From assembly GCA_018644725.1 (NCBI GenBank), contig JABGPZ010000094.1:1-64000 (forward strand): DNA of 64,000 nt. The letters are read 5' to 3'. The notes beneath the pieces are model-generated. The model did not search any database. It had not been told where the DNA came from and saw only the letters and a program-made list of their open reading frames with translations. Both the position numbers and the translations under genes were made by a program. Below, in pieces: positions 44,667 through 47,588 of the stretch. Source of the DNA: Phycisphaerales bacterium (lineage in GTDB: Bacteria; Planctomycetota; Phycisphaerae; SM23-33). Positions within the stretch are counted from its first letter, which is position 1. The number at the start of each line of letters is the position of its first letter.

Positions 44667-44708
44667 GGATCATTCGAAATCAATTCATATCCCTTCAAGG
44701 AGAATGCA

Positions 44709-46259
44709 ATGAAGCGTAGAACATTCATGAAAAACGTTGCCCTTACGACGGCCGCGGTGGCGGTTGGCTGCAACGACGTGACGGCCGAAAAGGCCACCGT
44801 CAAGCCCGCCCGCAAACCGAATATCATTTTCATCCTGGCCGACGACCTCGGCTATGCGGAACTCGGTTGCTATGGCCAGAAAAAAATCAAGACGCCCAAC
44901 ATCGACCGCCTCTGCAAAGCGGGCATGAAGTTCTCCGACGCGTACTCCGGCCACGCCGTTTGTGCGCCGAGTCGCTGCACGCTGATGACCGGCCTGCACA
45001 CCGGCCATAGTTATGTACGCGGCAATCTCGGCACGGCCTACGCTGGTCAGCTCGACCTTCCCCTCGACACCGTCACCGTCGCCAAGCTTCTCAAGCAGGT
45101 CGGCTATGCGACGGCGTGCTGCGGCAAGTGGGGCCTCGGCGGCCCGGGTACCGACGGTGTCCCCTGGAAGCAGGGCTTCGACGAATTCTTCGGCTACCTC
45201 GACCAGTGGCGCGCGCACACCTACTACTCGCCGTACCTCTATCACAACGAAAAGCAGGTCCCCCAGAAAAACGGCAAAGAGCTCATCTTGCACGAAAAGA
45301 TCAAGAGTCCGCTCAAAACCGAAAAGAGCTACTTCGACCGTTACGGCGGCAACGAGTATTGCACGACCGGCATGATTCGCACGGCGCTGAATTTCATCAA
45401 CACCAACAAAGAAGATCCCTTCTTCCTCTACTATGCCACGCCGATCCCGCACGTTTCGATCCAGGCGCCGCAGAAAGACTACAAGGAGTACAAGGGCAAG
45501 TTCAACGACAAACCCTATCTCGGGACCAAAGGCTATCTGCCGCATCCCCAGCCGCGCGCGGGCTATGCCGCGATGGTCTCGCACATGGACCGCAACGTCG
45601 GCAAGATCATGGACCTCGTGGCCGAGCTTGGCCTCGACGACAACACGCTGATCATCTTCACGTCCGACAACGGCCCGACCTTCAACGGCGGCAGCGACTC
45701 GACGTTCTTCGAGTCCACCCCGTTCCGCGGGCTGAAGTGCTCGCTGTGGGAAGGTGGCATCCGCGTTCCGTTCATCGCGACGTGGAAAGGCAAAATCAAG
45801 GCCGGCTCTTCGAGCGACCTGCCCGTTGCGCTGTGGGACATGATGCCGACCTTCCTCGACGCGATCGGCGAGACCGCCCTGATCCCCGAGGGAATCGACG
45901 GGCTGAGTATTCTGCCGACGCTGACGGGCAAGGGCACCCAGGAAATCCACGATCACCTGTATTGGGAGAGCGGCACGACCAAGGCCGTCCGCATGGGCGA
46001 GTGGAAGGGCTATAGCGTCGTCGAAAAGAAGACACAACAGCGACGACTCTATCTGTTCAATCTTGCGACCGACCCGAAGGAATCCAAAGACGTCGCCGAG
46101 GCGAATCCCAAGGTCGCCGCCAAAATCGCCAAGATTATGATCGAAGGCCGAACCGACTCGCCTTACTTCACCATGGGCAAGCCCTCGCCTGCGAAGGCCG
46201 AGTGGATGAAGAAAGCCAGGGCCCGCGCGAAACGACTCAAAAATGGCGAAAAACTCTAG
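44709..46259 (+). CDS. Arylsulfatase (formylglycine-type)
   Basis: NIIFILADDLGYAELGCYG; CAPSRCTLMTG FGly motif; KRRTFMK Tat-like N-terminus. Confidence 0.95.
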   Translation: MKRRTFMKNVALTTAAVAVGCNDVTAEKATVKPARKPNIIFILADDLGYAELGCYGQKKIKTPNIDRLCKAGMKFSDAYSGHAVCAPSRCTLMTGLHTGHSYVRGNLGTAYAGQLDLPLDTVTVAKLLKQVGYATACCGKWGLGGPGTDGVPWKQGFDEFFGYLDQWRAHTYYSPYLYHNEKQVPQKNGKELILHEKIKSPLKTEKSYFDRYGGNEYCTTGMIRTALNFINTNKEDPFFLYYATPIPHVSIQAPQKDYKEYKGKFNDKPYLGTKGYLPHPQPRAGYAAMVSHMDRNVGKIMDLVAELGLDDNTLIIFTSDNGPTFNGGSDSTFFESTPFRGLKCSLWEGGIRVPFIATWKGKIKAGSSSDLPVALWDMMPTFLDAIGETALIPEGIDGLSILPTLTGKGTQEIHDHLYWESGTTKAVRMGEWKGYSVVEKKTQQRRLYLFNLATDPKESKDVAEANPKVAAKIAKIMIEGRTDSPYFTMGKPSPAKAEWMKKARARAKRLKNGEKL

Positions 46260-46438: not shown

Positions 46439-46678
46439 ATGTCCAAGACAGTCACATTGCGATTGAAGGAAGAGACGTACGAGAAATTCCGCGACATGGC
46501 GGCGGAAGACAATCGGCCGCTGTCGAATTTTATCGAGACGGCCGCGCTGCGTTTTATTCAGGAGCAGGAACATGCCGATGAATTTGAGATGGCGGAAATC
46601 CGTGAGAACGTCGGTCTCAATCGAAGCCTGACCAAGGGCCTGCGCGATGCCAAGGCAAAGCGAGGCCGCTTTGTCTGA
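46439..46678 (+). CDS. Ribbon-helix-helix antitoxin
   Basis: MSKTVTLRLKEETYEKFRDMAAEDNRPLSNFIETAALRFI; overlaps the toxin ORF. Confidence 0.8.
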   Translation: MSKTVTLRLKEETYEKFRDMAAEDNRPLSNFIETAALRFIQEQEHADEFEMAEIRENVGLNRSLTKGLRDAKAKRGRFV

Positions 46679-46952
46679 ATTTCGCCTGTTCGAGACCGAT
46701 GAGTTTTGCAAGGTATTCAAGAAATTGCCTGCCCAGGATCGGACGTTTCTGGAGAGTAAGCTTTCGTCATTTGTTACTCCACAGCTCAAGGCGGATCCAT
46801 TTTGGGGTGCCAACATCAAAAAATTGCGCGGCTATACGCCTGACACATGGCGGTATCGCATCGGAAAATTCCGGGTATTTTACATTGTCGACCAAGAGGA
46901 GAAGATTGTGTATCTTCTGACCATTAGCCACCGTAAAGACGCATACAGATAA
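46647..46952 (+). CDS. RelE/ParE-superfamily toxin
   Basis: FCKVFKKLPAQDRTFLESKL...NIKKLRGYTPDTWRYRIGKFRVFYIVDQEEKIVYLLTISHRKDAYR. Confidence 0.88.
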   Translation: MPRQSEAALSEFRLFETDEFCKVFKKLPAQDRTFLESKLSSFVTPQLKADPFWGANIKKLRGYTPDTWRYRIGKFRVFYIVDQEEKIVYLLTISHRKDAYR

Positions 46953-46974
46953 ATTATGAAAACCAGAAAAGCCA

Positions 46975-47020
46975 GCCCGACCTGATCCCAGGTAGGGCGG
47001 TTTTTTTTTGCCGGGAAGGG
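46975..47020 (+). repeat. ~45-bp direct repeat / terminator, copy 2
   Basis: GCCCGACCTGATCCCAGGTAGGGCGGTTTTTTTTTGCCGGGAAGGG, near-identical to 46306-46350. Confidence 0.85.
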
Positions 47021-47224
47021 GTGCGCGTTTGAAATGCGCCCACGGCCACGATTTGGAGTAGATATAGGAGCCGAAAAACGCGGCGTGTGATTTCGGCATG
47101 TTTTAAACGCCATTTAAGCGCCTGTCTATAGGGTCTTTGTGGGTGGAGGAAATCGAGAGAGCAAGATTGGTGTTTTAAATGAGAAATATGCTGGAAATAG
47201 GGGAAAACGAGCGAAATAAGGCAT

Positions 47225-47357
47225 AAAAAAAGCGACGGGGAAGGGAGAACCCCGTCGCAGGTGGAGAAGTTGTTTGCCTGAAGGGAGAAAAAGGCAAACA
47301 ACGCGGAGCCAATTGTGAGCCGATTTCTCGGCGAGTCAGATACGTTCATATCCGACT
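47225..47357 (-). ncRNA. Candidate four-hairpin sRNA with UUCUCC anti-SD loops
   Basis: Hairpins at 47334-47357, 47319-47332 (GCCGA-GAAA-TCGGC), 47269-47302 (11-bp stem), 47232-47258 (9-bp stem plus T7 terminator). Confidence 0.65.
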
Positions 47358-47363
47358 GAATTC

Positions 47364-47391
47364 ATTGTATCCCCACGCGGACAGGAATCAA
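47364..47391 (-). promoter_or_regulatory. Promoter of candidate sRNA
   Basis: On - strand TTGATT-16 bp-TACAAT; predicted start at 47357, the first base of hairpin 1. Confidence 0.65.
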
Positions 47392-47512: not shown

Positions 47513-47514
47513 CG

Positions 47515-47588
<74 letters not shown>

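Follow-up and report, generated by a model that had tools for sequence, protein, structure and literature searches.

A predicted family of paralogous small RNAs with repeated C-rich loops in a Phycisphaerales bacterium and its relatives

The window analysed here is a stretch of 64,000 nucleotides from a Phycisphaerales bacterium, and a short region on its minus strand, with a tRNA gene and proA as neighbours, raises the question of whether it encodes a small RNA (sRNA) and whether such an RNA could act on ribosome-binding sites through its C-rich loops. An initial annotation had described a four-hairpin sRNA candidate of this kind, and all of its elements were found on the minus strand where they had been placed, with a predicted fold that agrees with the description. 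The parts of the locus are as follows:

47225..47306, minus strand: conserved two-hairpin sRNA unit (type B), formed by the last two hairpins and the linker
47225..47357, minus strand: full predicted transcript of ~133 nt, if the start belongs to the upstream promoter (fold z = -7.6)
47364..47391, minus strand: promoter-like TTGATT-16-TACAAT (TTGATT 47391-47386, TACAAT 47369-47364), 9/12 matches
47357, minus strand: predicted start A, from sequence
47334..47357, minus strand: hairpin 1, AGTCGGATA-TGAACG-TATCTGACT, from sequence and fold only
47319..47332, minus strand: hairpin 2 with a GAAA tetraloop, from sequence and fold only
47269..47302, minus strand: hairpin 3 with an 11-bp stem and the loop TTTTCTCCCTTC at 47291-47280 (that is, UUUUCUCCCUUC)
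47259..47268, minus strand: single-stranded linker TTCTCCACCT (that is, UUCUCCACCU); the linker of the second copy reads UUCCCACCU
47225..47258, minus strand: terminator hairpin (47232-47258) with the loop TTCTCCCTT (that is, UUCUCCCUU), and T7 (47225-47231)
47514..47588, minus strand: tRNA-Arg(ACG), just upstream of the sRNA
At the place matching the promoter of the second copy, minus strand: weak promoter-like CTGACT-16-CACAAT

The 133-nt minus-strand RNA is predicted to fold with -53.7 kcal/mol (z = -7.6), a stability reached by none of 200 dinucleotide shuffles, and 13 of 2000 dinucleotide shuffles of this RNA place CUCC in two hairpin loops. UUCUCC stands in both loops and in the linker, with CUCCC in the two loops and CUCC in the linker. 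Such loops are rare in the window genome, as only three of 220 terminator-like hairpins (~475 kb) carry CUCC, and all three belong to sRNA genes of the family described below. The promoter match (9/12) is weak alone, with four such sites in 1.4 kb vs 1.1 in shuffles; it is the comparative evidence that is decisive. An Rfam scan of the region at gathering thresholds returned nothing except the neighbouring tRNA, and phage and plasmid collections gave no match. Elsewhere in the window, at 46451-46952 on the plus strand and pointing towards the sRNA, lies a likely type II toxin-antitoxin pair, in which a small partner, weakly matching DUF6290, is located upstream of a ParE-type toxin (PF05016, E=1.1e-7).

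The last two hairpins recur on another contig of the same genome (G000:C42:31353-31433), where they are 88% identical to the window element. The loops TCTCCCTT are common to both copies, and all stem changes keep pairing while the loops stay UCUCCCUU; four stem pairs differ, all of them paired in both copies (U-A to U-G twice, U-A to C-G, and G-C to A-U). In the second copy, a promoter-like TTGATA-17-TATATT ends ~7 nt before the first hairpin, so the RNA there would be ~78 nt long and begin at that hairpin; its predicted fold has z = -6.6. Hairpins 1 and 2 of the window are absent from this copy, and no homologue of this 5' half was found that would lend it comparative support. The proposed four-hairpin unit of 133 nt is thus reduced to its last two hairpins, which alone recur and have a predicted promoter of their own in the second copy, and the first two may form an additional 5' module or belong to an upstream region. 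Each copy follows a same-strand tRNA gene at a distance of ~200 nt, namely tRNA-Arg(ACG) in the window and tRNA-Val(GAC) at the second copy, and the spacers between tRNA and sRNA are slightly similar (z = 3.4, with 2/300 shuffles equally good), a hint that a tRNA-sRNA unit was duplicated long ago.

Beyond the window genome, the pattern TCTCCC-N-TCTCCC-N-T5 was searched over 397 genomes of the class, yielding structured matches in roughly two of every three genomes of the window's family; in the other genomes, the matches were essentially unrelated sequence. Most structured matches represent one conserved gene, here called type A, which consists of GTCCGCTGCACCC, a hairpin with the loop CTCCCTCC, the closing strand GGGNTGCGGC, and a terminator hairpin with an identical loop. 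In an alignment of 24 type A sequences, 96% of cells are paired and 12 of 27 pairs show double-sided changes; none of 500 shuffles reaches any of five measures, and slid versions of the alignment are less than 50% paired. Since TCTCCC was part of the search pattern, the invariance of that part of the type A loop is partly a product of how the sequences were collected, an effect that touches neither the type A stems and flanking bases nor the type C genes, which were collected with models. A search with the model R2 recovers type A (E<=1.3e-17) in 33 of the 35 genomes of the window's family, the exceptions being the window genome and G043, in which only weak matches to type C genes were obtained; over 392 genomes spread across the phylum, its matches were at chance level only. 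Type A follows nrdJ, encoding the vitamin B12-dependent ribonucleotide reductase, at a distance of 180-430 nt in 16 of the 24 aligned loci. A search of the window genome with one query protein, for which an empty answer is weak, did not find nrdJ. The promoters upstream of type A are uneven, with an exact TATAAT in 7/24 loci and unconvincing sequences in the others. As a family finder, the two-sequence model R1 was discarded, as it matched only its own copies and gave weak hits besides. A strict loop pattern run over a wide collection of genomes other than the window genome had, among the matches listed, scattered occurrences in unrelated taxa, and one match, in Victivallaceae, sits inside a tandem repeat.

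The weak R2 matches led to further paralogue classes built on the same plan. Type C comprises GAGGCTCCTCGG and the loops CTCCCTCC and CTCCCCTCC, with seven pairs showing double-sided changes among five sequences. The model R3, built without the window genome, detects two further genes there (C75, E=2.5e-13; C73, E=1.6e-12) and matches each of the three sister-family genomes sampled at E<=7.8e-22. Within 80 nt upstream of type C, TTGAC occurs at the -35 position in 20 of 20 loci examined, where 1.5 would be expected, suggesting that type C has a promoter of its own. The gene that usually precedes type C is, as we take it from its sequence, a putative nadD. Across the family, the loop motif appears as UCUCCCUU (window), CUCCCUCC (type A), CUCCCCUCC (type C), and ACCCCCUCC. 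Further arrangements were observed in other genomes. In G008 (G008:C140:5949-6426, L252), a C-rich-loop sRNA unit occurs three times in tandem, 195 nt apart, and genomes of genus g10 (L258, L260, L261, L255, L259) carry additional paralogue classes in which a hairpin CTTGGCAGTCAAATGCCAAG, or GTCGACAG...CTGTCG, precedes a terminator with the loop TCTCCCCCC. In f17, another family of the class, the sRNA-like genes L394 (G323:C119:9340-9416) and L395 (G103:C12:5361-5434) have a TTGACA promoter and the terminator loop TTCTCCTCC / CCCTCCTCC, and may represent either a more distant offshoot or a parallel case.

Models built from the relatives also recover the window element. R2 and R3 contain none of the window sequences, yet R3 ranks the element first in 460 kb of its genome (E=8.3e-5) and the copy on C42 second (E=0.0043), and in an 87-kb search with R2 it scores E=1.7e-5, alongside the type C gene on C75; these E-values are rough, since the calibration of the models was short. 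The element shares with the family the two hairpins, the C-rich loops, the terminator, and the compensated stems. Taken together, the second copy and the relatives support a gene on the minus strand, and the compensated changes bear out that the C-rich loops are kept while the stems vary, both as initially proposed. Judged by this comparison of sequences, the window element is almost certainly a real sRNA gene of the A/B/C family, the window genome is predicted to hold at least four related sRNA genes, and the predicted paralogous family is found throughout the bacterial family of the window, with type C also in the sister family. Two side observations concern the same genome: a tRNA-SeC gene (L308, 9516-9609, minus strand) suggests the use of selenocysteine, and a short tandem array of TTTTTCACTCTCCCCG is present at L167 (G000:C30:394-483).

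How might such an RNA act? Among 308 called genes of the window genome, with starts taken from a simple codon-usage script, the Shine-Dalgarno (SD) sequence is AAGGAGA, and GGAGA precedes 17.5% of the starts vs 1.4% in shuffles. UUCUCC therefore fits the 3' part of the SD, GGAGA(A), and the example target of the initial annotation, the sulfatase gene, does have GGAGAA at 44699-44704, 4 nt before its ATG at 44709. The loop core CUCCC would need GGGAG, and this exact complement is not enriched before the 308 genes (6 observed, 6.2 expected), nor is the full complement GGGAGA at ribosome-binding sites. Loop pairing of -9 kcal/mol or stronger is found in 21 of 308 ribosome-binding-site windows vs 2 coding windows; still, loops with permuted letters do about equally well at these sites (z -0.5 to -1.6), so that pyrimidine content explains the preference. 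Among the matches listed for perfect 12-nt complements of the type A loop, most are simply the sRNA genes, and the comparison across genomes identified no conserved target. Hfq gave no match in the 35 family genomes, with 5 of 14 controls positive. Based on these pairing data, we infer that pairing at ribosome-binding sites is plausible and would be selective rather than general, and it is somewhat favoured as the main action of the sRNA. On the whole, the locus is probably best explained as a trans-acting sRNA gene working in the proposed manner. The sRNA would be transcribed from its own sigma-70-type promoter, and its CUCC(C) loops and linker would be redundant seeds for pairing with GGAGA / GGGAGA inside or beside the SD, thereby keeping ribosomes from entering a set of mRNAs. 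It would do so without Hfq, an independence demonstrated by experiment for LhrC of Listeria.

Other explanations concern the strand, the coding capacity, and the scope of the hairpins. Read on the plus strand, the region likewise has a good predicted fold, with GGGAGA in its loops, as would a CsrB/RsmY-like sponge for CsrA with GGA-loop hairpins. Yet, it is the C-rich strand that has the terminator T-run and the promoters, and the type A alignment has 80 cells with G-U wobbles on that strand vs 5 on the other, an asymmetry that identifies the C-rich strand as the RNA and led to rejection of the sponge; as this strand is the transcribed one, the loops lack the GGA typical of CsrB/RsmY. The sponge is accordingly very hard to credit, and the same holds for a small protein-coding gene. 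Such a gene would be the 131-aa open reading frame at 46954-47349 on the minus strand, which crosses part of the region, but it has no Pfam match, and the two copies differ by gaps of 1 and 2 nt as well as by paired stem changes, which speaks against an ORF as the cause of the conservation. The hairpins might instead be mere terminators or an attenuator of neighbouring genes, devoid of any function in trans, given that the last hairpin fully qualifies as an intrinsic terminator and that type A follows nrdJ at 180-430 nt. This appears improbable. The tRNA-Arg gene is already equipped with a terminator, the hairpin upstream of the last one carries the same loop and is likewise conserved, CUCC loops are missing from the remaining 217 terminator-like hairpins of the window genome, and type C is preceded by a conserved promoter of its own.

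An alternative of greater weight, though still unlikely, accepts the RNA and assigns it another partner, an RNA-binding protein specific for CUCCC loops; the RNA would be a decoy or scaffold for this protein, and mRNA pairing would be incidental. The loops are indeed kept more strictly than pairing with the SD AAGGAGA needs, their exact complements are not enriched at ribosome-binding sites, and several paralogues per genome, together with the triple tandem in G008, would suit titration. However, no candidate binding protein is known, and the variants UCUCCCUU, CUCCCUCC, CUCCCCUCC, and ACCCCCUCC fit a purine-rich pairing partner better than a strict protein site.

Multi-loop RNAs of comparable design have been described in other bacteria. 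LhrC of Listeria exposes CUCCC in a loop, in the linker, and in the terminator loop, and it blocks the lapB SD in a way that does not require Hfq (PMC4132741). The window sRNA shares with LhrC (RF00616) the two-hairpin plan, the CUCCC of the first loop and of the terminator loop, and the presence of several copies per genome, whereas its linker carries CUCC instead of CUCCC, its stems are unrelated, and its organism lies outside Listeria. At a relaxed threshold, LhrC is the best Rfam match of both type B copies, with 39.4 bits over the full length for the window copy (E=6.6e-5) and 25.8 bits for the second, both below the gathering cut-off of 110 bits. In the alphaproteobacterial alpha-r14 RNAs, the anti-SD motif CCUCCUCCC is found in each of three hairpins whose stems differ (PMC10746234), and CcsR RNAs occur as several homologous copies (PMC10253847). 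The present RNAs resemble alpha-r14 / NfeR1 (RF02344) and CcsR1 / cuckoo (RF02791) in that the hairpins each expose the same C-rich motif, but the motif is CCUCCUCCC there and UCUCCCUU, CUCCCUCC, or CUCCCCUCC in the window, type A, and type C, respectively, and the hosts are alphaproteobacteria, including Hfq-bearing species (a Caulobacter Hfq served as control). The best relaxed matches are CcsR1 for type A, and CcsR1 and alpha-r14 for type C. The alpha-r14 / CcsR1 scores for types C and A are 28.8, 25.5, and 22 bits (type C at most 28.8 and 25.5), short of the gathering scores of 58.8 (RF02344) and 65.3 (RF02791). The analogy to CcsR/cuckoo RNAs drawn at the outset is thus echoed by CcsR1, alpha-r14, and LhrC, all known anti-SD sRNAs, being the best sub-threshold matches of different members, but scores this far below gathering keep the RNAs from being filed as members of Rfam families. 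Accessible UCCC loops of Staphylococcus sRNAs (Rsa, RNAIII) contact translation initiation sites, and C-rich boxes have been discussed as a general signature of translation-controlling RNAs (PMC3861533); the Staphylococcus RNAs have different architectures, and the window family gave no Rfam match to them. The simpler reading of the likeness to LhrC and the alphaproteobacterial RNAs is convergence rather than common descent. In the best reading, the family is new, being absent from Rfam, while its kind, multi-loop sRNAs repressing translation, is known.

A wider interpretation, put forward tentatively and with somewhat less than even confidence, is that of an order-wide, apparently Hfq-free network of ancient paralogous sRNAs. 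Each paralogue would stay at a fixed position of its own, downstream of nadD, nrdJ, or tRNA genes, and the same C-rich loops on all paralogues would imply shared targets. Multi-loop anti-SD RNAs would then have arisen independently three times, in this order, in Listeria, and in the alphaproteobacteria. The finding adds a sizeable and strongly conserved sRNA family absent from Rfam, in bacteria in which no Hfq was detected, and the fixed orthologous loci (nadD-sRNA, nrdJ-sRNA) offer a basis for a comparative target search. Finally, the finding suggests that redundant C-rich loops have arisen more than once in evolution, as a general means of addressing ribosome-binding sites.
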